Origin: Ischnura elegans | Lineage: Eukaryota; Arthropoda; Insecta; Odonata; Coenagrionidae | DNA length: 64,000 nucleotides | Direction: 5' to 3' | Assembly (NCBI RefSeq): GCF_921293095.1 | Contig: NC_060259.1 | Span: 27,163,812-27,227,811, forward strand | In this document: positions 235-30,300 of the stretch, piece after piece | Layout: each line of letters starts with the position of its first letter | How positions within the stretch are numbered: the first letter of the stretch is position 1 | Translations under genes and position numbers: made by a program | The notes under the pieces: model-generated | Databases searched by the model: none | What the model was told of the DNA's origin: nothing | The model's input: only the letters and a program-made list of their open reading frames with translations

Positions 235-1224
235 TCAGGCGCTGCTTGGGCTATTTGTCATCCAGGGCTTTAATTTTTTGGAGTCTTTAGTAGTGCTGTA
301 AGAAAATCTTGAAAATTCTAAACAAGAAGTAAGCTTCTCAATAATCAATTCGAAAGCTTTGGAAGCGTTATTTTCATTAAACACCACAGTCCAATCTACT
401 CCTGCTACACAATGTTTTAGATAATTGTAATTTATACCATACTTAAGGGGCTCACTCTCACAACCACCTCTGTTTTGACTATGATAATGCACAGGAGCAA
501 TAGAAAACACAGTCATAGAATGATCACTTATATCTAGGTGGAGTACTTCAGTGAGTAATTGAAATTTATACATATTCGCAATTCTAGCAAACACATGATC
601 TAAACAAGTCGAAGATGATCTTGTTATTCTTGTTGGAAGTTTCAGCAGACATTGTAAACCTTGGGAGCACATTAAATTAATATAATCATTAGAAACCTGA
701 TTATTATCTAAAATATTTATGTTAATATCACCAACAATAACCAGGTTACCACTAACTTTGTGAAAGACCCCTTGTATTTCATTTAAGAAATGATTAGGCT
801 GAATAACGTGATGCCTATATAGACATAACAAGTAAAAATTAATAAAGCCAAAGTGTAAAGTCAACAATACACAATCAGCAGAAGATAGTGTGACTGAAAT
901 TGAATTACAAGGAATTTCTTCAAGTACATACACAAGGAGACCTTTGGCTCTACTGTAATCAGTGCATTTAGCAAACATTTTAAAACCACTTATTTTGTAT
1001 AGACTTAACTCACTTTCGCTAATCCATATTTCAGTAAGTACAATTACAGTAGGTTTAAACATTAACTGAGATAAATTGATTAAGAACACATCAAAGTTCG
1101 TTCTCATACTACGTATGTTTTGGTGAATTATTTTCACTTCTTTCACTATACTAAGGCTATGAATATTTTGAGCGTTAGAGAGAGCGTTAGTGCTACAATT
1201 AAGATTACTATTTATGGAAGACAT
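235..1224 (-). pseudogene. Non-LTR retrotransposon ORF2, apurinic-like endonuclease domain, 3' truncated
   Basis: This is the N-terminal part of a LINE ORF2. The 329-residue frame reads as an exonuclease-endonuclease-phosphatase fold, the domain that nicks target DNA for target-primed reverse transcription. Visible landmarks are the early IIHQNIRSM block (Asn after Gln), the LTEIW block with its catalytic-type Glu, the VGDINI block near residue 165, the LDHVF block, and the SDHSMT block that supplies the terminal Asp-His pair. The frame ends with KPWMT, the usual lead-in to the reverse transcriptase, and then runs out, so the whole reverse transcriptase is absent. Its start lies 4 bases after the stop of the preceding ORF1 frame on the same strand, as in a normal two-ORF LINE. 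Loss of the 3' rather than the 5' end is unusual for this element class and points to later deletion or rearrangement. The family (Jockey/CR1-like) is inferred by eye. Confidence 0.82.
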
Positions 1225-1228
1225 TGTA

Positions 1229-1900
1229 TTATAAATTATTTATATCATTCATGCACGTGAGTACAAATACCGGTTCTTTTTCTGCTTTTCTCATCAGAAT
1301 TTTCCCGTCACGTATCCAAAGATATTTATAGTTTTTTTCTTTCTTCACAGCCTTCGCTGCATTCAGAACTCGCCTTCTGCTCGCACAAAGCGCCTCGTTT
1401 ACGTATATCGGTGAGGAAGGGCCCTGAAGGTTAAGGTTTCCAGTGGCGAAATCTCTCTTCACTCTTCTTTTGGCCACGAGGTCGTCCTTGAGCTGTTTGC
1501 GGACGAATTTCACATGAATTCCTCCGTTTCCACTTCCTCCTTTGAAGCGATAACAATAATCAATGTCACTCGCTTCCAGTTTTACCCCTAAGCCAACTCC
1601 AATTCGACACACAACACTCGTCAAATTTTCATTAGAGTTTAGGGGGTATCCATGCAGCTCAATGGAATGAGAGAGCATACGCTGTTCTTGATCATTGCAC
1701 TGGTTTTCAAGAGCCGCGATTTGTTTCTTCAAGTTAATATTTTCCTATAGCAATACATCTATTTTTTCAAAACACTCATCTACTCTCTTACCATGGGCGT
1801 TAATAGACGAGGAAAGGTCTCCGACAGCATCTACTTCAAACAGCATGTTTACGCCCCCGCAAAAACTAATGTCTCTGTTGCCACTATTTATACTAATTGA
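1229..1900 (-). pseudogene. Non-LTR retrotransposon ORF1 (nucleic-acid-binding protein), interrupted
   Basis: The open part (1229-1732) has a short coiled-coil-like start rich in Lys, Gln and Glu. It is followed by a region with the ELHGYP, CYRFKG and IHVKFVRK blocks typical of the RRM-like and C-terminal domains of LINE ORF1 proteins, which coat element RNA. The same frame continues upstream for about 50 codons through a single TAG (positions 1745-1747, between VLL and ENINL) up to a TAA at 1901-1903. The real ORF1 was therefore longer and carries at least one nonsense mutation. There is no good ATG at the start of the open part; it opens at a TTG. The endonuclease frame follows directly downstream on the same strand. 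No zinc finger is visible in this copy. Confidence 0.72.
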
Positions 1901-2870: not shown

Positions 2871-3161
2871 ATGGCGGACAGCCACAGTACGTTGACTTGT
2901 GGTTCTTGCAAATTACCGGCCGAATTAGCGGGAAATATTATTCCCTGCGTTTTGTGTGATAAGATATTTCATCACAAATGCACCGGCCTTAATGATATTT
3001 GTCTGAAAGTGCTTAACGATCACCATTTCATGAAATGGATGTGTTTTTTATGTCGCCTACGGAAGTTCCCGATCGAAAAAATGGTGGCCGATATTGAAAC
3101 ACTTCACCTGAAACAAACTTTCACAAAACACCTGAAAATGGATTATGTCCTACTTAAGTGA
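2871..3161 (+). pseudogene. LINE ORF1 N-terminus with PHD-type zinc finger, truncated
   Basis: The 96-residue frame starts at a credible ATG (GAAAAGATGG). It has an ordered Cys/His series, CGSC, CVLC, HHKC and CFLC, typical of a PHD finger (Cys4-His-Cys3). PHD fingers occur at the N-terminus of ORF1 in some Jockey/CR1-group LINEs, and the neighbouring reverse transcriptase supports that origin over a host chromatin gene. The zinc finger ends around residue 65. The frame then runs for about 30 residues and breaks at 3161, where it overlaps the start of a reverse-transcriptase frame by 17 bases. The rest of ORF1, the endonuclease and most of the reverse transcriptase are missing, so this is an internally deleted copy. 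Confidence 0.65.
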
Positions 3162-4155
3162 CAGACAACAAGTTGTTTGTTATCCATATGGATCCTCAAC
3201 TATAAAATCTGGTCCCTTGAAACTAACCAGAGGTGTACCTCAAGGATCTCTCCTTGGTCCACTGCTTTTTTTACTTTTTATTAATGACCTTCCGAATCAC
3301 TTGTCACATGGTAGAACCATTCTTTATGCAGATGACACCTCCACCATTGTCACAGCCAAAAGTGCTCAACATTTGGTGGACATCACTAATTTGACCATTA
3401 AGGAAATGCATCAGTGGTGTAAAAACAACAACCTCATTATTAATGAAGATAAAACTCTCTTCATACAATTCCTCATTAAAAGCTCTAACAAGAGAGTTCT
3501 TCTCCCTCATATTAATAATATTAATCACTCCACAAATGTAACTTCAACAAAGTTCCTGGGGTTCCTAATCTCAGATGGCCTCGATTGGTATCCTCATATT
3601 CAGGCCATAATCAATAAAATTTCTGTGGGTACTTATATGATCAGGAAATTATCTCCTATTGTGTCATTTGAAACCCTGAAAATGGTTTATTATGCCAAAG
3701 TACATGCTCATATTTCCTATGGAATATTGCTTTGGGGAAATTCAACTGCTGCCAAAAAAGCCTTTTCTGCTCAGAAAAAGGCAATTAAGACTATGCATCA
3801 AGTTCCTATCCGCACCCCTGGCAAGCCCCTCTTTGCTGCATCAAAAACCCTAACACTCCCTTCTCTCTATATCCTGACATGTGCCAACTTTATTAAAGCA
3901 AACCTTGATAAATTTCCTTCTAATGCCACCTTCCACCATCACCACACAAGATCAAGTAATAATATACACCACGAGCAGTACTCCAGCTCCCTCTGTTTAA
4001 AGGGTCCCAGGCATTCAGCCACTGCTATATTTAACAAAATCCCTGTTGAAATAAAAGATTGCACCTCAATTTATGTATTTAAGAACAAGCTGAAACTCCT
4101 TCTCTCTAAAAAGTGCTATTACAGCATTTCCGAATATATGGAAGATAATTTGTAA
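3137..4155 (+). pseudogene. Non-LTR reverse transcriptase, C-terminal half (partial)
   Basis: The open frame (ATG at 3145, 336 residues) covers the second half of a LINE reverse transcriptase and its C-terminal region. It shows SYLSDRQQV, motif B GVPQGSLLGPL (about residues 30-40) and the catalytic LYADDTS (YADD at 61-64). The thumb-like FLGFLISDGLDW and ISYGILLWGN follow, and last the HHHHTRSSNNIH, ATAIFNKIPVEIKD and KLLLSKKCYY blocks that end these proteins. Motif A with the first catalytic Asp is absent because the frame is joined at about 3137 to the ORF1 start. The frame is uninterrupted to its stop. That implies the internal deletion is recent, or happened before or during insertion. 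Confidence 0.88.
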
Positions 4156-4397
4156 TTATGATAATCTCCATGATGCTAGTTGTGACATCTTATTTTGTCC
4201 ATACTATTGTATTGTACTTATTTATTTCATCAATTCTTATGTATTTAGAAAATTATTTTTATTGTTTCCATGTAAATTGTAAATCTTGATGACACATCAT
4301 CATTGTATTTTTATTTGATATTTGTATTAGCTTTTTTATGACGTAGCCATGCAATTGTACTCTTGCCAATCGGTGAAATAAATTATTATTATGTTTT
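4156..4397 (+). other. LINE 3' UTR and putative tail
   Basis: AT-rich sequence after the reverse-transcriptase stop. It ends with GGTGAAATAAATTATTATT, a polyadenylation-like signal followed by a short ATT repeat, the usual kind of tail in Jockey/CR1-type elements. No flanking target duplication was found by eye. Confidence 0.5.
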
Positions 4398-4472
4398 TTC
4401 TTAAATTTTCTTCAGTTTTCACTGAGTAGCTTTAGTGTTAAGAGCACGGGTTTTCACCAAGGTAACTCTTCA

Positions 4473-4889
4473 CTATTGAATTGCGTTGAGAAATTTTCTC
4501 GTGATATGACAGGTTGAAATTATTACAGCCTTTTGCAGTTTGATGTAAGTATTTGGATGGAGGTTGAGTATTTTGAAACTATTTTGTATGTGTTTTGGGA
4601 TGATACCGGTAGCTGAGATGACAATTGGAGCTATATAAACCTGTTCCATATTCCATATTCTTTTTATTTCTATTGCAAGATCTTGGTACTTGTTAATTTT
4701 TCCTGTAATTGTCTTTTCGATGTTATGCGACAGTGGCACGGCAATATCAACTATGTAGCAAGTTCTATATTTCTTGTCAATCAACACTATATCTGGTCTA
4801 TTATTAACTATAGTTTTATCTGTTTGAATAGGCAGATCGTAATAGATTTTAAATTCGCCGTTTTCAAGCACTGTTTCAGGGTGGTACAC
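4473..4889 (-). pseudogene. PD-(D/E)XK-like domain fragment from a retroelement-associated ORF
   Basis: The 138-residue frame contains RPDIVLIDKKYRTCYIVDIA, a Pro-Asp followed about 17 residues later by Val-Asp-Ile-Ala. It then has KYQDLAIEIKRIWNM and a hydrophobic IAPIVISATGIIPKHI segment. This arrangement recurs at the C-termini of many uncharacterised reverse-transcriptase-containing ORFs in invertebrates and resembles restriction-like nuclease folds. The catalytic Lys is not certain by eye. The fragment starts with MYHPETVLENGE and has no upstream partner on the minus strand, so it is probably a 5'-truncated insertion. A host gene is unlikely given the surrounding retroelement debris. Confidence 0.5.
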
Positions 4890-4933
4890 ATAATATGGGG
4901 TCTTAGTATCTATTAACTTGTGTCTTGTGTGTT

Positions 4934-4956
4934 ATTATTATTATTATTATTATTAG
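4934..4956. repeat. (ATT)n microsatellite
   Basis: Seven ATT units in a row. It sits just before a retrotransposon tail fragment and could be an old LINE tail or priming tract. Confidence 0.8.
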
Positions 4957-4963
4957 ATAATAA

Positions 4964-5410
4964 TGGATTTGAGCCCCAAAGGACGAGCCCTTAACGACCA
5001 CATCCAAAATCCTTATTGCTGAAAGCTTATTTAACTTCAAATTTTCAAGTGATTCAATTTTTAAAACGCAAAAACGTGTAATACAACTAATTTGTAATGT
5101 TCCGTACCATGCACCCTGCCTCTCTCTTTTCAAAAAACTTTGTATTCTGACCATACCTTGTGTCTCTATCTATGTTCTAAGTCTATTTACTTTGAGAAAC
5201 ATAAACCTGTACATGACCAATGACAATTTCCACTGTTACCAAACCAGGACCTGTAGAGATCTACACCAATCTTTCATCAGGACCCTCAAGGTCCTAAACA
5301 TATGGGCCTGTTGATTTTCAACAGGCTCCCTCCTGACATCAAAAATCAAGAGAACACAATGATGTTCAAAAGGAAATTGTTGATGTTTCTAAATAATAAT
5401 CAGTTTTAAT
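4964..5410 (+). pseudogene. LINE reverse-transcriptase C-terminal tail, decayed
   Basis: Translating plus across a frame change gives blocks typical of the end of a LINE ORF2: KTQKRVIQLICNVPYHAP, LFKKLCILTIPCVSIYVL, YQTRTCRDLH, and, in a second frame, LLIFNRLPPDIKN and FKRKLLMFL, then a stop near 5409. These match the order of the same blocks in the copy ending at 4155, but the sequence is clearly different, so it is another family or an old copy. A frameshift lies near 5310. Confidence 0.65.
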
Positions 5411-5559
5411 CTATCAAAGAGTTTATGAACTCAATATTTGTTTCCTGATCGAGTTGAATATTAGATTATGTTTCTCTCCAGTTTTATATATCCTATGTTT
5501 AACCTTAGTGATTGCAATATGTAATCCCTGGTAATAATTGACGTGCCTTATATCATGTA

Positions 5560-5630
5560 CTATGGGGGAAAAAAGTATCCCAACAAAGTTTGTGCCGCCA
5601 CCATCGCTTCGCAGGAGAATGGGTTCCCTT
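5560..5630 (+). repeat. Left terminal inverted repeat of the 3.6-kb element
   Basis: Begins CTATGGGGGAAAAAAGTATC and pairs with 9075-9145. TA precedes it. Confidence 0.8.
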
Positions 5631-6159
5631 TCTAACAGTATATAATCCTTGGAAAGAGACGAGGGAAATTCAAATACGGTCTTTTTCAGCCACCAAGGTC
5701 GTGACGGTGAATTTGCCTGCCTCGAACGTATTTCGTACTCCTCTCTACAATGATGGCGCATTTGAAATCCCTAGGAATAGTGCCTTACTTTTACCGCTAT
5801 TTCGCTCTAACCCTCATTTCCTTTCCTTCTTCGCTCCTACTCCGGCACTCGTAATAAAATTCACTGAAAGCCCATCTCCACTTCCTCATTTTCTCGTCTA
5901 TGAGAATTTACGGGATAAATATTCGCTAGACGTAATCTGCAAGGCAGCAATGGCGTGGAGCGATTTTGAGCATCAGGAATTACCCTAAATACACTGGTCA
6001 ACAAAAAACTTTTTTCTAACCTAGAGATGTTGTTGGATGATCCTTGAGGTGCTTTTCGTCCTGTTTCCAAATCTCGGCTCAGATATTTTCTATCACGTCT
6101 ACTTTCTTTAGGACAACCTAACTAAATAAGGGTTCAAGAATATTCAAGCAAATAAATCG

Positions 6160-7804
6160 TGATTTTAAAAATGTGAAAAATAGGTACTTTCGTAGGATTT
6201 TCTTATATATTTAGCATCTGGTAAGTTCCTATTCAGTGTCAATCAGTAATCTGATAACATGTTGCTGAAATTTCCTTGGTTCTATTTTTCCAAATGTAAA
6301 ATATCTTGTTCGAAACCCTCTCTCTGTTCATCTCTAAAAGTCTTAGGTTTGGTGGAAAAAGGCAGGGTTTGAGTCGAGAAAATAGATTTTAAAATTCATA
6401 TTGCAGCCCATATTTTGGTACAATTTAATTATATTAACATAGCCACCAGATCATGATAATTTTCTGCCATGATATTTCCTAAAAAATGTCCCGATACATT
6501 TTTAAATGCGTTCCACGTGCTTTTCTCCATTGATCTCACTTGCTATTGAAATTCTGTATCCTTCAATTCCTAATCTGTGGCCCAATACATATTCCTTATT
6601 TGATCTCACTTAATTGAACAACTTTTTGTTTCAAGTAAGTAAAACCAGCACCATATTTGTCCATGGCTTCAAAAAATTTTTTAAAAAGTCCTTATTTAAT
6701 AGGAGGAGGAAAAAGAATATTTTTTTGGATCAACCTAAGGCTGAAAAAGGACATTTTTGGATCCAGGGACGAGTTCTTTACGTTCCAGACACATTGTTTT
6801 CAAGCAACAATTTTTTCTGTCCCTGATATCCCATTCGCAGATGAAGCAAAACATTTCGTATAGCCAAGCTGTAATCCTAGTAATATTGCAATTACTTTAA
6901 GTGGCCACAAATTTTCCATGTATATTTTCGGTAGTGATTTTTTTCTGAAAGTAACTGCATATTCTCGTAAGATTCTTTCATTTCAGTTTCATGAGTTAAC
7001 AGTATTGATGGGAGCTCATTGCCATTACGTATGCCTTTAAAATAACCTATGTGGAATAAATGAGCAAACGCTAATCATCTGTGTTTAATTCGAAATTAAG
7101 AGTATCCATAACAGAGAGAACATCATTGCAAAAAGCAAATCTGTTTTGGTGAAGAAACCAAATCAAATTCGTCATGGCGAGAGCGGGACATCAAAAGTTT
7201 CGAATTTGGATCCAACAATTTTCAACCCTTAAATCGTGATCCTAATATTTTACCATGCTTTCAGGATAAAATTTAAATTGTGAAGTAGATCATTTAAGTC
7301 CTCTTGCATCATAAAACGAGGTACAGCAGATTTACTCGGTCCAAAATTTGGGTCCTTCGAGTTTCTGAATCCTTCATTATGATGTTCTTGATTACTTTCT
7401 GAATATTTTCTAGGATTAACATACTCCATTGGTTTCGGCACTTGTAAGTTTTCGGAGTGAGGGAACGGTAGTATCGCTGATTCAAAGTCGTCTGGATTTT
7501 TTACAGTGTGTTTTGACTTCGCTGTAATTCCTTTCATTTTTTCAACAAAAATAACAGTCTGAACAATGATCTGCCAAATTATGGGGACGGCAAATTCCTT
7601 ATGACGTAGTCCCTTCGACCAACCAGTAAGAAGCTCTACATTGGTGGTACACAACACATGGGGATCCCATTCTTTATCTTGGCCACCCAACAGGCAGTCA
7701 AAATAAAGTTTATAGTCCTGTCTGAAAAAGGGAGTAATTTTCCACCTTTGAGCCTTAAAAGTAATTTCACCGTATGCGTAATAAAAGTCATTAGGATGGT
7801 TCAC
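6160..7804 (-). pseudogene. Decayed member of a multicopy arthropod protein family of unknown function
   Basis: The open part (7250-7804, 184 aa, starting at a GTG) has FYYAYGEITFKAQRW, LYFDCLLGGQDKEWDPHVLC, LLTGWSKGLRH, KGITAKSKHTV and EDLNDLLHNLNF. I recognise this order from a large family of uncharacterised arthropod proteins present in many copies per genome. Following the minus strand through stops and frameshifts recovers the rest. FCNDVLSVMDTLNFEL lies near 7100-7150, LPSILLTHETEMKESYENMQ near 6960-7020, ICGHLKVIAILLGLQLGYTK near 6860-6920 and CEWDIRDRK near 6830. FKIYFLDSNPAFF follows near 6360-6390, then DEQREGFEQDI near 6300-6330 and LNRNLPDAKYIRKS near 6200-6240. The Cys pair expected after the ITAKSKH-proximal Trp is missing in this copy. 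It sits wholly inside the TIR element, which suggests it is element-borne. Function is unknown. Confidence 0.68.
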
Positions 7805-9074
7805 GCACTATCTATGCCTAAATTCTGATTAAAGCTAAGCCACTTCTCAGCGATTACGTTGTAATAAGCTGTAATTTCTTACGAGCAACAAAAGTCTATC
7901 TTCTACTACCTTCAGAGAAATCAAACATCTTCTCGCTCCTACAGCTGGTCACATGCTGATGTGAAGTTGCAGCTGATGCAGCATTGCTTTGAACAAAACG
8001 ATAAGATAGTACAATTTTAAACATAGCTTGACAGAATAGGAACGCATTACATCGTAGGACAACATGTTTTGGCAGGAAAGTTTTATTTACACTTTCTCAT
8101 ACACACTCACTTTCTCACGATACATAAATGAATTAAATTACTACTTTCTTAAAAGCAAAAATATACATTAAGCTGTCCTAAAGAAACTAACTGTGATAGA
8201 AAGAATCTGAAAAATACGCCTTAGACAATTGTCACTTTCAAAGGTTTTAGTGCGTCAATTGCAGTTGAAAATTTCCTCAATGATAAGCACATGATTGCTA
8301 CAAATTTAATAGACACACAATTTTTCGAGTTAAATTCCATAAATCGCAAAACAAAATTAACATATTATTTTTTCCTAGCCAGTGGTAAAAAAAACTTTAT
8401 TTTCTGCAATTTGATACCTCACTTTCTTTTTAATGTATTGGGAAACCAATTTTGTAAAATTAAAACTGCATGCTATGTTGGTGTCAAAAAGTACTTTTGA
8501 CAATATATAAGGGTCAAATAAAATATCTAAATTAATGTGGACGAAAAATACACTCCAATGAATTCACACTTCACTTGGGACAATGTCTCTCCTTTTATTA
8601 AATTCGAAATCTCAGCAGCAGTTTGATGTATTATTGTCAGCATCAACATATCCGGTCGTAAACCTAGGAGCTAGCCGGTCACTTCTCAGGTGGAGGTCTT
8701 CTCCGACGCGTTCTGGCAATGTGCACGGCAGTCCTTCCAGAAAAGCTAAAACTTCTTCAAAACCAACTGCATTAAAATGCGTGGCCCATCGAATATTCTC
8801 GTTGACTGCCTTGTTTACGTTAAGGGAAAGCTTGCTATGGCCCATAGTGATTTTTGTCGTTTCGAAGAGATATGCGAAGGAAAATTCAGAGGAGCGTTTC
8901 CAATGCGCGCACATGATGCCGTCGAATGCGCCTCAAATTCTATGGAGTTCATCGCCAGTCATGCTCTGGGTTGCGGGAGACTCGGTAGTTGGTCGCGTAT
9001 TTGGACGACGAAGATAAGAAATGGTTTGCCTTGTTTGAATTTCCCTCACTGACCAAAGAATAACAGCCCACTGG
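7805..9074. other. Element interior, upstream of the decayed gene
   Basis: About 1.3 kb between the start of the decayed gene and the right inverted repeat. Open frames at 8583-9017 (plus) and 8612-8914 (minus) overlap each other and show no recognisable domain. It may contain the lost 5' exon and promoter of the decayed gene. Confidence 0.35.
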
Positions 9075-9145
9075 AAAGGAACCCACTATCCCGCGGAGCG
9101 GTAGTGGCGGCACAAACTTTGTCGGGATACTTTTTTCCCCCATAG
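9075..9145 (-). repeat. Right terminal inverted repeat of the 3.6-kb element
   Basis: Inverted copy of 5560-5630, ending GATACTTTTTTCCCCCATAG and followed by TA. Confidence 0.8.
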
Positions 9146-9222
9146 TACATAACTAATTGTTTTGTGAAATGATCTCCAGGCAAATAAAGAGTATTATTAA
9201 CTTCACAATAGAAATTACGTTA

Positions 9223-11177: not shown

Positions 11178-11990
11178 TCACATTTTACAACAATCACAGC
11201 CATTATCAAAATATTCTGCTAAGGTGTAGTATGCTTTCTTAATTAGGAGCTCCTTTAGACATTTTTTAAAATTGGATATGGATGTAATGGATTTTATGCT
11301 CGGTGGTAAGCTATTGTAGATGACTGAAGCTGAGTGAAGTGGACCGTGCTGAGATGAGGACAGAGAATAATGGGGCAAGTGAATGTTATTATGATTACGA
11401 GTGTGGTAGGAGTGTACTTTGTGGTGAGCTGGGAAATCTTCTGGGTTTTGCTTTACAAATAGGGCACAGCTTAGAATGTAGAGGGATGGAACAGTAAGAA
11501 TTGACAGTTTTTTGAATAGGGGTCTGCCAGGGGTAAGTGAGGGAAGGTGAAGGATAGCTTTTAGGGCTTGCTTTTGGAGAGAGAAGATCTTTCTGGAGAG
11601 AGAGTCATTTCCCCAGAATAATATCTCATAGGTGATGTGGGATTGGATTTTACCGTGAAAAAGTAATTTCAAGGTGTCTAAGGTGACGATTGGAGCTAAT
11701 CTTCTAATGAGGAAGATGCCAACTGTTATTTTTTTTGTAACATTATTTACATGGTGAGACCAATCCAGGTTTTCATTGATTGTTAACCCAATAAACTTAA
11801 TGGCTTGGGAACGAAGGATGGGGTTATCACTTACTCGGAGTAGGAGGCTGGAAGAGGGAGGACTTCTTTTGTGATGGAACTGAAGATTAAAGGATTTCAG
11901 GGAATTTATGGTGAGACCAATGGATCTGCACCACTCGTTCATGTCAGAGACAGCGGTTCTGCAGAGGTATCCAAGTTCAGTGGAGTTTTT
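11178..11990 (-). pseudogene. LINE reverse transcriptase, thumb and C-terminal domain
   Basis: In the same frame as the preceding reverse transcriptase, after one TAA codon. The open part from 11,942 reads MNEWCRSIGLTINSLKS, then FIGLTINENLDWSHHVNNV, GIFLIRRLAPIVTLDTLKLL, SHITYEILFWGND, SYHTRNHNNIHLPHY and a terminal LKELLIKKAYYTLAEYF. The block order matches the plus-strand copy ending at 4155, so both belong to the same broad lineage while differing strongly in sequence. The frame ends CDCCKM. Confidence 0.9.
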
Positions 11991-13058
11991 TTATTGTAGC
12001 AGACATGACGTATCATCAGCATATTGGAGCAGTTTCCCAAGAGTAATTGAGTTGGGAAGGTCATTTACAAATATTAGGAAGAACAGGGGTCCAAGTATTG
12101 AGCCTTGAGGCACACCTTGATGAACTTCTAGTGGCTCTGACAGTGTAATTTTGGGACCTTTCGCAGTATGATAGTTAAATTTGACTTGCTGCTGCCGGTT
12201 AGTAAGGAAGGATTTTATCCAGAGTAAGGCATTACCATTGATACCCAGCCTCGAGAGTTTAAAGTACAAAATTTCATGATCAATACTGTCAAAGGCTTTG
12301 CTAAGATCATAAAATATGCCAACAGTAGAATTTCTATTATCTAGAGCCTTGTGGATATAGTTTAGTAGTTGGAATATGGCACTGATTGTTGATTTTTTGT
12401 TTCGGAAGCCATGTTGACTTTCATGAAGCAATTTTTGTTGTTCCAGAAAACTTACAAGACGATTATATAAGATTTTTTCAAAAATTTTTGAGAAGTATGA
12501 GAGAATGGATATAGGCCGATAGTTGTATGGATCTGACCGGGAGTCCTTTTTGTACATAGGGGTAACGTGGGCTAACTTAAGATAGTTGGGAAAATATCCA
12601 TTGTCAAAAGCGGAATTAATGATGTCTGCCAAGGGATGGCATATGAATTTGTTAGCTGCTTTGATGATTGGAATGGGGATTTCATCAAAACCTGAGGACC
12701 ATGTATTTGGAAAGGATTCTATGACTTTTTGAACCTCTTTGGGACAAGTGGGAAAAAGAAAAAAGGACCTAAAGGATGGAGAGCTTTTGGAGAGTAAGGG
12801 GTATGGGGGAGGGGAGTCAGTGGTTTTTCTGCTGAAAGTTGAGTTATTGGTAGCAATAATTACAGGATCTGTAGTTAGGGTACCATTGAAATTATCATGC
12901 ATAGCATTATGTTGACCTGATTTGGTGTTGCACTTAATAACATCCCATGCTGATTTTATGGGATTGGTCGAGGAAGCGATGTACATCTCGTTGTTGATTT
13001 TGCGGTGTGTCCTCACTCGCTCTTTTAAGACCTTGAGAGATTGTTTGTAAGAGGCCAT
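11991..13058 (-). pseudogene. LINE reverse transcriptase, fingers and palm
   Basis: A 355-residue open frame with all palm motifs. It has YRPISILSYFSKIFEKILYN (about 180-199), SQHGFR, motif A FYDLSKAFDSIDHEIL with the first catalytic Asp at 251, LGINGNALLWIKSFLTNRQQ, motif B GVPQGSILGPL and motif C LQYADDTS with YADD at 346-349. It ends at a TAA directly after SCLLQ. The minus-strand frame carries on in the same phase as the next entry, so this single nonsense codon is the main defect here. Confidence 0.92.
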
Positions 13059-13120
13059 TAGGCAATTATCAACATATTTAGCTTCCTGATGAAGCTCTCG
13101 TAGGCGTCGCCTCTCAACTA

Positions 13121-13456
13121 CTAGGTCATGGGAGTAGAGCTTTCTTTTGGAGTCTTTCGGTCCACATCTAAGGTATTCTTGGGGAAAGCTGCATTAAAAT
13201 ACATGGTGAAGGTATCAATGAATTTTTTAAATTTGTCTTTTGCATGTCCTGCTTCATAAATATCATCCCAGGTTTCAAGAGCTATTGAATTTACAAGGTT
13301 AATGATTGATTCATCATCAAGAGTTCTCTTATGGATAAGATGAGGGATTTTGTAAGAGGTTTTGTTCAAGGACTCAAGCGAGAAAAGAAGAGCACGGTGA
13401 TCAGATAGTATAGAGGTTACATCCAAATAATTACAGCGTGAAAGGGTAAGTACATA
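13121..13456 (-). pseudogene. LINE endonuclease end and linker
   Basis: The frame contains LTLSRCNYLDVTSILSDHRA, whose SDHRA block is the terminal Asp-His of the apurinic-like endonuclease. A linker with IALETWDDIYEA and FIDTFTMYFNAAFP follows. In the frame upstream of about 13,456 the protein changes character because it is reading the THAP exon out of frame. A two-base frame change between 13,060 and 13,120 separates it from the reverse transcriptase; the minus-strand frame upstream of 13,058 continues as KLYSHDLVVERRRLREL. Confidence 0.7.
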
Positions 13457-13457
13457 C

Positions 13458-13598
13458 CTTACTGTTTTTCGTGGAGGTGGAATTGTCTCTTCTGATCGGC
13501 CGAATCCACTTGATCTCCAACTCAAGATATTTTGGAAAGCTGAAAACTTTAACTTTGGGTCCACTCCTAGAGTTTTCTACGCACACCGGCACTGAACA
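13458..13598 (-). pseudogene. THAP zinc-finger gene remnant, first THAP exon
   Basis: In the correct frame on minus the sequence reads CSVPVCVENSRSGPKVKVFS, then FPKYLELEIKWIRPIRRDNS and TSTKNSK, followed by a GTATGT donor. This is the first half of a THAP domain: a Cys-x4-Cys zinc pair, the FSFP block, the invariant Trp of KWI and the basic RRDN. The first Cys lies at the very edge, and a pyrimidine-rich AG just after it (TTGTTCAG) could alternatively be an acceptor. The longer frame at 13,121-13,564 reads this exon out of phase and is a shadow here. No upstream start exon was identified. Confidence 0.62.
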
Positions 13599-15240: not shown

Positions 15241-15256
15241 TATGGTCGGTAAGGGG

Positions 15257-15810
15257 TTGGGTTGGGTTGGGTTGGGTTGGGTTGGGTTGGGTTGGGTTGG
15301 GTTGGGTTGGGTTGGGTTGGGTTGGGTTGGGTTGGGTTGGGTTGGGTTGGGTTGGGTTGGGTTGGGTTGGGTTGGGTTGGGTTGGGTTGGGTTGGGTTGG
15401 GTTGGGTTGGGTTGGGTTGGGTTGGGTTGGGTTGGGTTGGGTTGGGTTGGGTTGGGTTGGGTTGGGTTGGGTTGGGTTGGGTTGGGTTGGGTTGGGTTGG
15501 GTTGGGTTGGGTTGGGTTGGGTTGGGTTGGGTTGGGTTGGGTTGGGTTGGGTTGGGGTGGGTTGGGGTGGGTTGGGTTGGGTTGGGTTGGGTTGGGTTGG
15601 GTTGGGTTGGGTTGGGTTGGGTTGGGTTGGGTTGGGTTGGGTTGGGTTGGGTTGGGTTGGGTTGGGTTGGGTTGGGTTGGGTTGGGTTGGGTTGGGTTGG
15701 GTTGGGTTGGGTTGGGTTGGGTTGGGTTGGGTTGGGTTGGGTTGGGTTGGGTTGGGTTGGGTTGGGTTGGGTTGGGTTGGGTTGGGTTGGGTTGGGTTGG
15801 GTTGGGTTGG
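15257..15810 (+). repeat. (TTGGG)n telomere-like array
   Basis: About 111 consecutive TTGGG pentamers over 554 bases. Only two deviations are present, T to G changes at 15,557 and 15,567, exactly two units apart, giving two GTTGGGGTGG decamers. TTGGG differs by one base from the ancestral arthropod telomere repeat TTAGG. The G-rich strand is plus. All three plus frames (Gly-Leu-Gly-Trp-Val repeats) and a minus frame (Pro-Asn-Pro-Thr-Gln repeats) are open only because the pentamer contains no stop; I do not regard them as genes. The array could form G-quadruplexes. It is internal to the window, so here it is interstitial. Confidence 0.97.
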
Positions 15811-16365: not shown

Positions 16366-16860
16366 CTAAAAAGCCAGCGACTTAACAATCCAATACCACA
16401 TAAGTGATAAGATGGACACATTTGCCATAACTTTCAAGGCTCTTTTTTGCATAGAGAATGCTCTAGCAGCAGCACTTGTGTTTCCCCACAAAACTACACA
16501 ATAAGCCAAGTGAGAATGAATTTTGGCATAATATATCAATTTCAGTATTTCTAATGAAGTAGTTGGAGCCAATTTGCGAATCATATATATTCCCGTTGCC
16601 ATTTTGCTAACTAAATCCTCATCAATATGGTATTGCCAATCAAGGTTTTCAGTTAATTTCAAACCTAAAAATTTTGTAGAGCTAGACTGCTGAATGGCTG
16701 TTGATGAATTGGTCTTAAGTAGAGGACTCGTTCCTCCATGGAGGACTAATTTTGTGATGGAAATTTAATAAACATGTTTTGTTTCCATTCAATTTTAAGT
16801 TATTACTTTTACACCAGCCAATCATCTGTGCTACTGACGAGCGTGCCATATCAATCACCT
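16366..16860 (-). pseudogene. LINE reverse transcriptase thumb fragment
   Basis: On the far side of the hAT insertion the minus strand reads IGWCKSNNLKLNG (near 16,800), then, after a shift, KLTENLDWQYHIDEDLVSKM, GIYMIRKLAPTTSLEILKLI and SHLAYCVVLWGNTSAAARAF. It ends abruptly after KVMANVSI; the last 15 or so residues of the open frame are flanking sequence. Confidence 0.75.
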
Positions 16861-16872
16861 CCCCTGTCTTAT

Positions 16873-17819
16873 TAGTGATGGGCAAAGTCGATCATTTTAG
16901 TGATTCAATCATTTTGACTCGAGTCACATAAGTGATTCAATCAATTGATTCAATCACTATGATCGAAAAGACTCAAATCAAGATTCAATCACTATGATCG
17001 AAAAGACTCAAAGGAGTCATGATTGAAAAGACTCAAAAGGAATCATGATCGAAAAGACTCAAAAGGAATCAAGATCGAAAAGACTCAATCAATGGATGTA
17101 ATAAATCACTTTGAATAATCGAATAAATACTGCCTCATCTGCGAAGAGCATTGGTAACGCTGATTGCTATCCATATTATCATTTCATATACTATTTTAAT
17201 TGTGAATTCCTAGATGAGTAAATTAGATTGCAAAAATGAAGGAAGCAGTGTCATGAAAATATTTGGGAAGGCGAAACTGCCACAGTTTCTTAACACTAAT
17301 AAAATAATTTCTAACTATAGTTGATCAAAATATAACACAAAATACACCACACACGCATGCATGAATCTGATCTGCAGGATAATTTTATGAACGGCACAAT
17401 AAAATATAACCAGCTTTAACTTCTACTTCTTAGCGTTCTCCTACAGGAGTCATCTTAATATTTTCCTTTTACGTGTATTGGTGTTATTAATACTGATAAC
17501 TGCTGGAAAACATTTAAGAAAAAGATTACACAAGTATTCAGTTCTTCATAACATAGTATTTAATTTTATCACAACTATTTCTGCCCTGACGAAAAGAGAT
17601 TAAGCATCGGTCCATAGAGTTTACATTACTAGAGTATTTATGCATCGGTCGTTCCAAATTTTGAATCAAACCGGAAACCGAGATGATTGATATGAAACCG
17701 GAAGTCGGAGTGATTGATGATTGATGATCGACTTGTTTAACGAAATGAATCATGAGTCATTTGATTCACCTAGTGATTCAATCTTTTTGATCGAATCGTT
17801 CATGATCGACCCATCACTA
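16873..17819. mobile_element. Non-autonomous hAT-type element inside a LINE
   Basis: Ends are TAGTGATGGG and its inverse CCCATCACTA. The 8-base duplication TGTCTTAT flanks both sides exactly (16,865-16,872 and 17,820-17,827). An 8-bp duplication with TAGTGATGGG-like ends is diagnostic for hAT elements. The 947-bp interior has no transposase. The subterminal regions are rich in GATTCAATCA and GATCGA words, as hAT subterminal repeats often are. Confidence 0.92.
16930..17095. repeat. Tandem 25-28-bp repeats inside the hAT element
   Basis: About six units of the form GATCGAAAAGACTCAA plus a variable AAGGAATCAT-like part. They lie in the left subterminal region and could be multiplied transposase binding sites. 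Confidence 0.75.
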
Positions 17820-17836
17820 TGTCTTATTACCAAAAC

Positions 17837-18570
17837 TCAGAGTAGTAGCATCATCAGCATATAAAATGACTTTACTCTGATGCAAATGAGATGGTAGGTC
17901 GTTAATAAAAATGATGAATAATAGTGGCCCAAGAATGGATCCTTAGGCACTCCACAATTTGAAATAAGGACATCTGAGTAGTTCTGATTAACATCACCAT
18001 TACAATTAGTGTTTAATTGCACTACCTGCTTACGATTAGTTAAATAGGATTTTATCCAAGCTAAAGCATTGCCATTAATTCCGATTTGGACAAGTTTACT
18101 GTACAATATGCAATGGTTAACAGTATCAAATGCCTTTGTTAAATCATAAAAAATCCAATAATTGCTTTCTGGTTGGCAAGACCCAAAGTAATGTCATTAA
18201 CAAGCTGAAAAACAGCAGACATAGTTGACTTGCCTTTAATAAAGCCATGTTGGGAGAGATTCAATAAATTAAATTTACACAGACAGACAATGATACGGTT
18301 GTAAAAGAGTTTTTCAAAGATTTTCGAGAAAACAGAAAGTAGTGCTATGGGTCTATAGTTATTTGAGTCACTCAAAGATCCCTTTTTATGAATTGGGCAT
18401 AACACAGAAAATTTTAAATTTGTCGGAAAATGACCATTGCAGATTGATAAATTGAAGATATCCGATAGAGGGGTAGAAATAATTTTAGCAGCTAGCTTAA
18501 TAATAGGCATAGGTACCCCATCACTTCCGACAGACCATTTATTAGCGAGAGATTTTATGACATCTTCAAC
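17837..18570 (-). pseudogene. LINE reverse transcriptase palm, frameshifted
   Basis: The frame at 18,139-18,510 has PMPIIKLAAKIISTPLSDIF, FPTNLKFSVLCPIHKKGS, NNYRPIALLSVFSKIFEKLF and LSQHGFIKGKSTMSAVFQLV. A one-base loss in a T run at about 18,145-18,150 then shifts it. The next frame (17,837-18,106) continues with KLVQIGINGNALAWIKSYLT and NRKQVVQLN. A second shift follows at the motif B region (CGVPK). After correction for phase the palm reads on towards a YADD-type motif near 17,860. This copy is clearly dead. Confidence 0.78.
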
Positions 18571-18574
18571 CTGT

Positions 18575-19780
18575 AGTATGGAGTATGCCTATCCTTTACA
18601 CTACGCATGTGTCAACCTTGGTCACACCTTTACCTTCCCGTTTACACTGCAATGGTATGATCAAAATTTCCAGTTTACACAACGCGTATACCGGCCGTAC
18701 CATTGTTTCATTAAACGTCATGCAAAATGCGCAAATCGTCTTTCAGCTGACATTTTTCGTTGGCTTAGACCATATAAGAACTAGACCCGCCATTCCCTAC
18801 CCCTACCCATGTCTCGCCGTGTGGCCAACATCTCCCCTCCGCTCCCTTCCTTCCCCAACCACTTTTAAAGCGACGTGACGTCACGGTTGGGACGCTCATC
18901 GTCGTAGCGCATGGCTATGAATGGGGATTCATTGTATCACTGCGGTATTCTGACCATTTTCTTCGCGATTTTTCAATTAAAAGTACTAATATATATTGCG
19001 CTATGTACGAGAAGTATTCTCTCAGCCATGGTTGGATTGGTGAACTTAACAATTAATGAAGAGTGGCATTTTTCGGCATTGGCAGCGACGAAAAAATATT
19101 GCGGCAGCAAAATGAAGACAAAGCCCTTTGTAAACTTACGCAGATTTTTTTATTATCTCGTCAGCGATCTAGCATCATTCGGAACATCGTTATAAAAACA
19201 TGAAATCTTGCACAAAAGTTGTAAACGGGGGGAATTTTAGAGAGGAAAAGGGTCATGGTGTAAAGAATTTGCCGGTCGTCCACGAAGTAACGCGGCAACG
19301 CCTTCGCATCAGAATTCATATTATTTAGGTAAGTAATATAAATGCATAATTTTTTACTTAGCAGACAGCTCTCGTGTTATTTATATTTTGCGATGGTGGA
19401 AAAAGGTCTTGCGCCGGCTTTGCAAGTGACACCTACGACAGTCTGTGCCTACGATTTACGTACGCTACGGAAAATTCTGGGAATAAATAATACCTATTAA
19501 CATATTTATAATAAGAGAGAAAGAGAGGATTGGATTAAAATAATTTTAAAGATAAATTTGCTTTAAAACAATCAATTATATTTATTTCATTGAATAACTT
19601 AATAAATATATTCTTGCAATTTTGTACGTATGTACTTACCGAGTTTTCAATGAAATTTTTTAAAACTATTTATGACATGATTTTATTTTTTAGATTTTTG
19701 TCATGATGCGTAACAAAAGAGGATGCAAATTCAAAGATCATATAAGAAGTGAATCTCATTTTATTAAAAAAATCCAGGAG
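18575..19780. other. No gene recognised
   Basis: A locally GC-rich segment (18,780-18,910, containing ACGTGACGTCACGG) is followed by AT-rich DNA. Several small open frames overlap, with no domain. The GC-rich part may be a repeat end. Confidence 0.35.
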
Positions 19781-24300: not shown

Positions 24301-27300
24301 TATAACGACACCCCACGGTGCACTAATAAACACTCGCTATAGCGAATTGTCACTTTACCGGAGGTGGAGCAAATAATAGCCGATATGCCTGTTGCAAACA
24401 GATATACAGGTACAGGAGTGGTGCGGCGATAGATAAACATCTATCCGATAAACGTAAGCATAAATCCAGACGAAAGGCGATGTTTTTTTGCATCACTAAA
24501 TTTCCTTACTCAAATAACGACTAACTATTCAAACAATTTATAAGCGCCGCACTGATTAAAAATTATGCAAAGCATTGTTTCGTCAATCATTATACATATT
24601 TATCGAACGACAGTTTACCACATAAATTTGAGACTGAGCACTCCATTAACTTCATTTCTAACAGATCGCTAGCAATCACAGAGGTTAAGGAGTCTTCATG
24701 AAAGTCTTCCGGCGGTGAAACCCTCGCTATGGCAAGAGCCAACACCGAAAGGGTCTCGTAAAAACGAATTTTTTAACACACTTATTATAGGGTCAATTGA
24801 CGGTGCATCGGCTATCTCTCGTAATAGCGGGGGTGTCGCTATAGCCCGTACTCGCTTTAACGAGGTTCCACTGTATTTGGTATCATTAAAAATATCCTTC
24901 CTTTCTGTCTCATCACCATTAATCTTCTCTCCTACTCATTTTTCAGTTTAAACTTCCTTCTCCTATTCTACATGACTGGTAGACCTGACCATCCTGAAAT
25001 GAAGGCTTTGGGAATCCCTGTCACTTCCCCATTGCTTCAACTACTTACCCTATCTGTTCCATCCGTATTATCTCCTTGAAAATCATTTAAAATTATTCCC
25101 ATTTCATTTTTCTCTCAGAAGAAAGGCCGTTTGTATTCTCCTTTTACTCTAATCTTGACTGCCTGAAGTCTATTCTCACTTCATGGTTACTGCTTCTGCT
25201 CCAAATTATTCAATGTGGCATGAAAGGCCTGTATCATTCTATTCTCAAGCATCTGTTTAATATTATTATTATTATTTCGTCTTTTATTCTCAAGCGAATT
25301 TAGGACATTGTTGTCCTCTCTTCCAATTAACTTGATGGACAATCACAAACATCCATGCCCTGGATGGTGATCAATCCACCCAGGCGGGATTCAAACCCGC
25401 GACCTCTAGGTTAGCAGCCGGGGACTTTACCCCGACGCCACCGAGGCCGGCAATAATATAATAATAAGGTTTATTATTATATTGTAGCCATGTCAGTTGC
25501 ATTTTTATTTCCAATGAAACTTATTTAGTTTTCATCTCTAACAAGGAGAGGTCACGTACCTTGCTCCCCCCTTTTTCAATGCCACATTTTTTATGGCATT
25601 CAGAATAGTGAACACATCTCTGAACTGGTAGTGGTTCCATTGAATGGGCCTTAATTTGGCTGTGATTAATTAATTTTCATGCAGTACTTTTAACAACTTT
25701 TACTGACCCATCTGTACGAAGCCCCGGTGTTTTGTAATTATATAAGGCTTGTTAAAAGTACCGCATGAAAATTAATTAATCACAGCCCAACTAAGGCCCA
25801 TTTAATGGAACCACTACCAGTTCAGAGATGTGTTCGCCATTCTGAATGCCATAAAAAATATGGCATTGAAAAAGGTGGAGAGGGTACGTGACCTCTGCTA
25901 GTAAGGGTTAACTCCTCACGATCTTTTATATGCTGGCATATTCTCATGATATTGTCATTAGGACTATGGCTGTTATGTTTTCGGCTAAGGGTTCGACTTT
26001 CTTCTTTGATGGAAGGAAAGGAAAAATGATAATTTTTCAGTGTTAATTTATTTTCTGTATTATTGTGAAAAAAAAGGGAAGTAGAATTGCTCGGAGATTA
26101 ATGCCATTCTTATGGAAGTAGAAGTTTACTATTGTGGGAAAATAAAAACCTTGGAGATGATTTCTTGTAAAATTCTCATGTTATTGAGCCCACACATCAC
26201 CCTTGTAATATATTAATGGATTTACTACTAGTAATTTATTTTTATCAAGTTAAAATAAAAATTACATTTTTCAATTATTTGTCAAAAGGCAAAGTATTAG
26301 ATCTCCCTTGGCTATGGTTAATTTGTTGTAATTACTTCTTCCCTGTTTTGTATCACTTACTTACGATGAGCAAATGGGGCAGATCATGTTTGGTCCGAAG
26401 ACCCATCAACAGCAAGTAACAATTTTCAGGGACATATTTTGGAATTTTTTCACCCATCAAGCAATAAGTTTATCATCTATAAACTGTAATTTTGGATAAT
26501 AAAATGCTAGGACTAAGACTATTCTCTCGACCTATGTATTTTTCGGATCAGTGGCATAACTAGGAATTTGCTTAGGGGGTGGGGGGGATGGATTGGTCAG
26601 GGGTGGTGATGGGGGGAGGGGTAAATGGCAAAATTTTGAAAAATTACATGCCTGGAAATTCATTTTTACATAATTTTGGTACGAAAGATTTAACTTGAAG
26701 TAGATGCAGTTATTACATGTCATAACTGGACAATATCTTTAAGAAAAAATTTATTTCTGTGAGGCTTTGGGGGGGGATCTATCCCCTCTCCCCCCCCCCC
26801 CCCCATAGTTACGCCACTGTTACATCACTCGTGGCTTATACTCCCAAAGTCACCACTCATGCCTCATTCATTTGCATCACTACTGTAGGGTGAAGAGTTA
26901 CAAAAGAAAAATAATTAAAAACTAAAACTCATTATTTTGATAAAGGTAATAACAACTAAGTCTTAAAAAAAAATTACTTCAGACTATTTTACCTCCATCA
27001 CTAAACTAATGTGCTCAATCAAGGCAGGTAATATAGACTGGTTCTTCTAATAATTGTTTTAAACTACTAATCATAAACAATTACTCATAAACTAATGTGA
27101 ATGAGTATTTCAAGCCTATCAGCATTAGATAAGAGTTACAGTCCCTGCCTCATGTACGTGTGTAAGTGGAACTTGTCAATTATTCTTACATGCAATCTTG
27201 GCTAACGCATGTTGCATGCAAGCTTTGTAAAAATCATAAAATTTAGGCACCAAAATATTGCATAGGCTGTTTACAAGCCTATAATGTCGAATATTTCAGG

Positions 27301-30300
27301 TATATTTTAGCAGCTTCTTGTGAATTTATAAGATTGCTTTTTAAATATGCAGCAGACTCCTGATTATCCAGCTGGGGTTTACCTGTTCATGAGTTCATGC
27401 TCCTTCAACGTATTCTGCAATCCTAGTAAAAAAATATAATCAGGTGCAAAAGCACCAGGATATTTGCATTTTAATGCAGGGCTACACCGGGTTTATTATT
27501 AATATCAGAATCTCCTTCTTGAAATGGAATTATTTTATTTACTTGCTGACAAGAAATGTTTGAAGTTTACTTGGATGTCTGCTCTAGTATTACAGGTGAT
27601 AATATTTTCATGAATTCCCTGACTCTACGTGGATAATTATCGCTTGGATTTATTGATCGCCATGCCACATCAACTGTTGTGAAGTGCATTGACATTAATT
27701 AAAAATCCGTAAGTGAAGAATTGGCTCTCTTGCATGAAGTTAGCAATTGAGGCTCTTAATTCTCTTTTTTTGCCAGTTTTGACTGGTTCCGTAGTTGGGA
27801 TAAAGCAGGAACATAGCTTGAACTTTGAGAAAGTAATCTTTAGGCCCTGTGGTGTTATAATGAAAACTGTGTAAAAATTCATGTTAAATGGCTTCAGGTT
27901 AAGTCCTGGTTTCCTACAACTGCTGCTGCATGTGGTCACGTCCCCATTGCCTTCACGGTTGCAATAGGGTGGTTTCCTTTTTTTTGCCTAAATCGAAAGA
28001 TTATTACTCCTGGAGTATGTATTTCCCCCCTTTTGATTTTTAAGTGATGTTATCTATTTTTCGCAATAAAATGAAAAGTGAAAATTTTCAAGCACACGAT
28101 ATTGCGATGGCTAAGCATGAATGCTGGGAAAAGCCCGTGTGATGTCATTCTGGTTCCGGCTGCCACCGTGTGAGGCCACCTTGGTGCGAGGCTATGAGCG
28201 CTGCTACTATGCAGGCTGCTAGTGGATAGCAGAGTACCCTGTTAGCAGGTAACACTTGGCACAAATAAGGATTATTAATACCCTATCAAATGAAGGAAAC
28301 TTTCCTACTATAGACAGTTTTAATAGGTGATTATTAAGAGATGTTTCCCTGAGCTCTGTGCCTCATGCATGAATTGGTAATCTCAGAAAATGTATAACTC
28401 CTGATTAATGGTATAGCATCTAGGTCCCTGTGACGTCATGTTTTGTGACATCGCATGGGCTCTGGCCTTTTTCAAATGAGTTTAATATTGACCATTAACA
28501 TTCGTCGAAACTGGGATTTCTTAAACCAAATAATTTGTATATTATGAATACACAAATGGTGGGTAAAGAATTGCAATCAATGCCTTTCGTTTTCTTTGAT
28601 GAAGGAAACTACCCTATTGTGCTCATGGATCCGTGTCCTGCTGCAGTTGCAACCTGTAAGAGACGCGAGTACGCAGCGTGGTGCCTGGCAGTGTAGCTTC
28701 TTGTGTCGTGCAATGGTTTCGAAGCTTTTGTGCAAACCACTGTACTGAATTCATGATCTTGCTGCCACGATCACATGGTTTTCGGTAACCAGGTGCAATA
28801 AGGAGCATTAGGAATACAAATACAATCGCGTAATCCCCGTTAAAAAGATCACAGTCAGGAAAAGAAAGCCCTTAATGATTCCTGAAAGTAATCTAAAATA
28901 ACAAACTGGGTGTAAAATAATAGATTGTTTGATTTACATACGTTGAGAAAATTACAAGAAATGAATGTGAAAGTTTGGATTATTTGTGTTTTCCAATTAT
29001 TCTTGCCGCCTTCCCCATAATTAGCATGGATAATCAGGCGTTTGCTGTAATTGAATTTTTTAAAGCTTCATTTTTTTCATAATCCAGAGTCCTATTTAAT
29101 GGAAGAAGCAACAATATTGCAGGTATTCAAAAATATGATGCCATTACCATGTGAATGTGTGACATATGAAGATGATTTTTGTTCTTATGGCACTTTCCAT
29201 GCCTATCAAAAAAAAATGTTCAAAGTTTACGCATTTTTGTGATTTTATACACTGGTGAAATTTTTATTATGCTCCCCATGTGACTGACAACTTTTTTGTA
29301 CTTTTCAGTAAAAAAATAAACAATCATTTTAAAATTGAGAAATTTTCAACATTCTAGTTTCATTATTGTCCGAAGTCAGCCAAACATTTCAACATTGACT
29401 TTTGTCCTTGCGCAGCAGAATGGCCATTTTGGGTGTTTTTGTAAAAAATATAACTTAATGAAAAATTAAACTTGAAAATCAATATTGGCCTATTTGTAAA
29501 TAGTTCATATATATCTGCAATATATTTTCTTTTCTTAAATGGGTGTATGGTGACCCTCTCCTGCATGATGTTGAATGGAATGGCCCTGAAGTATTCTATG
29601 ATGGGCTGACAGTGCAGGTGTCCTTCATTTAACATGAATTTTTCCACGGTTTTCATTATAACACCACTGGGCGTCAAGATTACTTTCTCAAAGTTCAAGC
29701 TATGTTCCTTCTTTATCCCAACTACGGAACCAGTCAAAACTGTAATGTCACCCTTTAAAAAACAAGGGCAAAACAAGAAAAGAGAAATAGAGCCTCATTT
29801 GCTTCAATATTTTCGTGAATTCCCTGAATCTACATAGATAATTATCGCTTGGATTTATTGATCGCCATGCCACATCAACTGTTGTGAAGTGCATTGATAT
29901 TAATTAAAAATTCATTAGTGAAGAATTGGCATGAAGTTAACTGAATAAAAGTGCATGAAACATTAAAGCTTTCTAAAATCTTTATCAATGGAAATTGTGT
30001 CAAATCACAAGAAGAGTAGTATTGGTTTTATGCTTTATAGACATAAGGAAATAGATTTATAGGAATTTTTTAAAGTGATAATTTAAGCTACCCTTGAAAT
30101 ATGATGAAAAATTGATAAGTGTTATTCAGGCATCATTAGGCAATTGAAAATAGTCCCAGGAAGTCAGCTGATGAGGCCCAAATTTTAAAATACACCACCT
30201 GTAATACAACTCTCCCTTAACACTAAGTTTTCCCGACAAAATCCTGGAACATATCTCTTATGTTAAGTGAGGGATACCTGTACTATTGTCTGATTGTACA

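Follow-up and report, generated by a model that had tools for sequence, protein, structure and literature searches.

The stretch of DNA analysed here, 64,000 nucleotides long and called the window throughout, contains a nested pair of transposons of known kinds. Very probably, the interval 5560-9145 is a non-autonomous element, probably Tc1/mariner-like, that carries an inert passenger, the fossil of a Chapaev3-like transposon spanning 5992 to about 8221. The decayed gene inside belongs to a protein family that we take to be widespread in arthropods and that annotation usually leaves 'uncharacterised'. Judged from its sequence, this protein is most likely the inner element's own, putative transposase, which would give the family a likely identity. 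The case also holds a warning: a gene lying between clean inverted repeats may not belong to the element that they bound. The features of the locus are as follows.

5558-5559, no strand: left TA target duplication, with GTAC at 5557-5560 (sequence and uninterrupted LINE sites)
5560-5630, plus strand: left terminal inverted repeat of the outer element (repeat search; near-exact copies across the genome)
5631-5991, no strand: left part of the outer element's body, found without the inner element in locus L071
5992-8221, minus strand: inner fossil transposon, Chapaev3-like, with its left end CACTGGTCAACAAAAAAC at 5992 (one common junction in each of the 20 outer copies fetched)
6079-6121, plus strand: left arm of the inner inverted repeat (repeat search, shuffles, pairing in locus L028)
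6180-7807, minus strand: decayed putative transposase gene of the inner element (interrupted by stops and shifts of frame; 7250-7807 is its longest open part)
8168-8210, minus strand: right arm of the inner inverted repeat (repeat search, shuffles)
8222-9074, no strand: right part of the outer element's body, of which 8232-8584 is found without the inner element in L071
9075-9145, minus strand: right terminal inverted repeat of the outer element (repeat search)
9146-9147, no strand: right TA target duplication, with GTAC at 9145-9148 (sequence)

The interval 5560-9145 is a mobile element bounded by inverted ends of 71-76 nt (89%) and a TA duplication, which confirms the inverted ends and the TA duplication described in the earlier note. 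The repeat arms, 5555-5630 and 9075-9150, are 76 nt long and 89% complementary; the first 22 nt are the same at both ends of the element, and a gapped alignment extends the pairing to about 120 nt. With up to three mismatches, the 22-nt end is found at two places in the window, which are the two ends of the element, against a mean expectation of 0.00 in 100 shuffles. The ends start CTATGGGGG and the insertion site is GTAC; the outermost ATGTA/TACAT letters derive from the palindromic target ATGTACAT. Because the target is a palindrome, the same sequence fits limits at 5560-9145, with TA duplicated, or at 5561-9144, with GTAC duplicated.

The element is inserted in the 3' end of a LINE. Eleven of the 16 loci having that LINE end span the site without the element: eight of them read CATGTACATA and three are slight variants (L056, L059, L064). 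The other five do not span the junction, and two of these carry the outer element (L049, which is the window itself, and L050). Together with the palindrome, the empty sites leave TA or GTAC as the duplicated unit: they confirm the TA duplication, and GTAC as the unit fits them equally. LINE-like open reading frames, including reverse transcriptase, were recognised by eye at window positions 235-1744, 3136-5440, 11178-13576 and 16366-18588, and one of these frames has the outer element inserted in its 3' end.

We searched the genome (1.72 Gb in 110 contigs) for further copies. The 21-nt outer end TATGGGGGAAAAAAGTATCCC occurs 266 times with at most one mismatch, 136 times in forward and 130 times in reverse orientation. 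When GTAC is required in front of the end and up to three mismatches are allowed, the counts are 199 and 194, or 393 ends genome-wide. Reversed-pattern controls gave 0 in both searches. Twenty outer copies were fetched by top left-end identity, a choice that may under-sample copies lacking the cargo; 19 of these 20 contain over 200 nt of the gene region, the exception being L017, which aligns only up to window position 6215. Seventeen different left flanks occur among the fetched copies, so that some copies must be duplicates and not independent insertions; flanks are shared in the following cases (L014 with L015; L017 with L023 and L026; L009 with the window). Among 12 full-length copies, the window's included, mean pairwise identity is 95.9%.

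Among the first 100 end positions listed, 27 pairs of ends face each other at less than 12 kb. Their spacing is 3.5-3.9 kb in 21 cases and 1.31, 2.42, 7.57, 8.30, 9.14 and 10.04 kb in the others. A contig end lies within 3 Mb of 16 of the 27 pairs, and the lengths form three tight groups; both facts suggest duplicated chromosome ends. Many composite copies are seen near contig ends, for instance at C4:135.4-137.9M, C9:113.9-115.0M, C8:117.2-118.0M and C1:0.09-1.33M, and they are probably chromosome-end segments duplicated repeatedly.

The family of the outer element is indicated by L071, a 1.31-kb copy with TATGGGGG ends that lacks the inner gene. It consists of a counterpart of 5557-5979 (79% identity), about 30 nt, and a counterpart of 8232-8584 (69%), and it is the product of an internal deletion at one locus. 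The open reading frame entering from its right end matches the Pfam family DDE_3 with 60.2 bits (cut-off 28.6), which we take as a marker of Tc1/mariner-type transposases. On the evidence of this gene-less copy with its DDE_3 fragment, the outer element is probably Tc1/mariner-like. A search of the larger open frames of the window copy gave no DDE_3-type transposase, and the fragment was seen in L071 only. Among the best 150 of 358 candidates scored, the closest relative of the fragment is 91% identical; relatives lie at C8:107351222 and C11:7653173. The DDE_3 profile run on the whole genome (best 150 of 1224 candidates scored) is by itself not informative about the outer element. Against the link to Tc1/mariner counts its source, one internally deleted and diverged locus.

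The outer element resembles Tc1/mariner in its duplicated TA and in the DDE_3 fragment that L071 has between these ends; it differs in its strong preference for GTAC, in its foreign cargo, and in that a complete transposase was not seen. Tc1/mariner elements need only TA as their target. GTAC precedes 84 of 100 exact outer ends, counted by eye in the part of the genome common to two listings of ends, and among the fetched copies it stands on the left flank in 19 of 20 and on the right flank in all 11 that are readable. These figures would suit an outer element outside Tc1/mariner, belonging to a group of its own whose duplicated unit is the 4-bp palindrome GTAC; L071 would then have acquired its DDE_3 piece from elsewhere. 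We consider this unlikely: TA is the centre of GTAC, and the DDE_3 frame enters straight from the right end, the expected outcome if the element's own gene had suffered an internal deletion. We keep a Tc1/mariner-like outer element as the preferred reading.

The inner element is delimited by its own ends. Its CACTGG end is present, with at most three errors, at the identical junction in all 20 fetched outer copies. L028 retains both ends: there, 5992-6121 pairs with the right side, and the inner repeat extends to CACTGG and CCAGTG. In the window copy the right end is largely deleted near 8210-8222, and as this right terminal part (about 75 nt) is missing, the right limit is approximate. A CCAGTG near 8380 was rejected as the right end, as L028 and L071 place that end near 8222. 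The inner inverted repeat of the window is by itself only moderately significant, its score being matched in 4 of 200 shuffles. The duplication of the fossil is ATA instead of TWA, as seen at its left end in the window copy and at its right end in L028; decay may be the cause.

The gene itself, on the minus strand between about 7807 and 6180, is in pieces spread over three frames. The longest piece that is still open (7250-7807) encodes 185 amino acids that are 31-41% identical to four proteins or pieces from the same genome. With at least 151 matches in its own genome (150 of 1629 candidates scored), it bears out the decayed, multicopy gene of the earlier note. The piece has no match in Pfam or NCBIfam up to E 1, nor in viral contigs and genome contigs outside this genome. 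Nine of the ten in-frame stops of the window gene, read in hand-chosen window frames, are common to at least 10 of 12 aligned copies, which represent 11 separate insertions (the window and L009 share flanks); one stop is found in the window only. As most stops are common to the copies, the gene was dead before these outer copies arose, and the single junction indicates in addition that the inner element entered once.

Intact relatives exist elsewhere. Using as bait a protein sequence of 557 residues, we found at least 85 matches in the genome (78 of 4224 candidates scored), six of them free of stops over at least 552 of the 557 residues. Seven gene copies outside the outer element were fetched (L065-L070 and L073). 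All have CAC-type ends, and six of the seven show a readable TWA duplication; in L070 it is not clearly readable, at the left end. These relatives, with ends and duplications of their own, tell us that the ends belonging to the inner gene differ from the TATGGGGG ends.

The seven copies fall into three groups. The first consists of L065 and L066, with 96.9% identity along 2827 bp; the empty target of L065 is seen at four other loci. The inverted repeats of this group measure about 315 nt; in L065 (1354-4180) they are 95% alike and far longer than those of the L067 group, and an extra inverted pair of 106 nt overlaps them in part. In the second group, L067 and L068 show no difference along 2587 bp (100% identity), and L073 matches at 99.96% over 2584 bp. 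These three occupy different sites (C5:22.99M, C10:48.25M and C7:97.67M), each with a TWA duplication and a 570-amino-acid open reading frame, and such near-identity points to very recent movement. Left ends of the L067 type with 0-1 mismatch number 12, of which six follow TAA, five follow TTA and one is undecided; two more appear at three mismatches, a limit at which the control also gives two. Right ends with an exact TWA, which this search required, number 10. A family with copies 99.96-100% identical and an open 570-amino-acid gene offers a natural test of present-day movement in Chapaev3-like transposons. L069 and L070 form the third group.

The earlier note had suggested that, should intact copies elsewhere have these outer ends, the gene would be the element's own and possibly transposase-like. 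A single transposon of this kind, with the TATGGGGG ends as the sites of its enzyme, would fit the near-constant presence of the gene region in the fetched copies and the regular spacing of facing ends. We nonetheless judge it highly improbable. The inner CACTGG end and the common stops mark the gene as cargo, and the seven gene copies with CAC-type ends, together with the gene-less outer copy that has DDE_3 instead, lead us to reject it as the outer ends' own; the transposase-like character stands, through an acidic triad and a low-confidence RNase H order. The note had also named ends without the gene and the gene without these ends, throughout the genome, as evidence against its reading; both kinds of separation do occur, shown at one and at seven loci respectively rather than for the genome as a whole. 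The preferred reading remains that of two nested transposons.

Several features tie the inner gene to Chapaev3 (CMC superfamily; Merrow, Garfield, Conan). For this group, the part of PMC4079192 that we consulted describes elements that duplicate TWA, insert always between A and T and end in CAC/GTG; their transposase, 556 amino acids long in the silkworm, has a DDE core and the motifs C(2)C, LH and H(4)H. In our relatives the ends read CACTG, except that L069 and L070 have CACAG on the right. The base before the duplication is A in five of six cases (G in L067), and T follows in all six. CF[IL]C, PPLH and H-x4-H are present in all five proteins examined (L065, L067, L069, L074 and L077); in our reading they would be the C(2)C, LH and H(4)H motifs. 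An acidic triad D-53-D-197-E is found in L067, L069 and L074, while L065 and L077 have D-E-E at equal spacing; in L066 the first two acids are both missing.

The relatives share with Chapaev3, as far as the consulted part of PMC4079192 describes it, the TWA duplication, the CAC/GTG ends, the motifs and the DDE core, and are also alike in the T after and the mostly A before the duplication and in a transposase of about 560 amino acids. The window copy differs in being a fossil nested in another element, in its ATA duplication and in the loss of the first two acids of its triad; the L065 group differs in its 315-nt inverted repeats and in an E for the second D. Assigned by these published features, the group of the inner gene is most likely Chapaev3. 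A new or unrecognised group, as first suggested, is not borne out, given that the relatives show the features in PMC4079192, as consulted, with small exceptions.

At E values up to 1, none of L065, L067 and L069 matches a Pfam transposase family. The N-terminus of L069 weakly resembles zf-AD (18.1 bits, below the cut-off of 28), a domain absent from the features that the consulted part of PMC4079192 gives. On these two grounds one could place the inner family as a separate relative within the superfamily of Chapaev3, outside Chapaev3 itself; but the TWA duplication in its A/T context, the CAC/GTG ends, the DDE core and the motifs C(2)C, LH and H(4)H all agree with Chapaev3, and we give this placement little credence. 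The Chapaev3 assignment is retained. L065 weakly matches RT_RNaseH_2 along its first strands (E 0.19), again below the cut-off; both weak hits fall at suitable positions in the protein.

PIF/Harbinger transposons make a TWA duplication and were considered for this reason. The TWA of the inner element's relatives is alike, whereas their CAC-type ends differ; with no Harbinger-type Pfam match in L065, L067 or L069 up to E 1, the candidate was dropped.

A structure model of L067, built from an alignment of seven natural sequences, has a poor mean pLDDT of 51. It places the first D on a set of three strands, followed by a helix, a strand and, right after it, the second D; a long helical stretch then leads to a helix bearing E513. 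We take this to be the order of RNase H-like transposases with an insertion. Foldseek returned no match at E 0.001 or better with this model; the weak top ranks include IS621-type recombinases, YqgF, RuvX and a terminase nuclease (RNase H-like), along with unrelated entries. Of the RNase H fold that the earlier note proposed looking for, the relatives show the three spaced acids and, in this model, the strand-helix order, with no significant fold match; the model is a hint of such a fold in the relatives, not proof. A model of the 185-amino-acid piece alone (pLDDT 39.7) was not used.

On this evidence the inner transposon inserted once into the outer element, and its gene was dead before the outer copies arose. 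For the outer element we propose cut-and-paste movement: a Tc1/mariner-type transposase acting in trans would have recognised the outer ends and cut at the TA within GTAC, the inner gene being uninvolved. The intact relatives of that gene would act as DDE transposases on CAC-type ends. We find it quite improbable that the whole of a more specific history holds, in which a cut-and-paste element with a near-obligatory GTAC target acquired a transposon from another superfamily, already dead, and spread mostly in cargo-bearing form, with chromosome-end duplications as a further aid. If true, one transposon would be a vehicle that multiplies the fossil of another.

Alignment A1 has no match in viral contigs, and nothing of weight among solved structures and PHROGs. 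The end and motif patterns gave no match outside this genome, nor did plasmid and phage collections at the DNA or protein level. A literature search for the motif string returned 0; on few literature searches, we do not claim the Chapaev3 link as unpublished. Over the whole window, Rfam at gathering scores and a tRNA scan found nothing.

The window has other repeats of its own. At 15254-15810, and 27 Mb from the contig start, the 5-nt unit GGGTT (TTGGG) is repeated 111 times without interruption, with 99% matches; to us it resembles the telomere repeats of some beetles. Two inverted pairs, one of 130 nt (25567-25878, 94%, with a 52-nt loop) and one of 117 nt (27774-29742, 95%, around 1.7 kb), are possibly other terminal-repeat elements.
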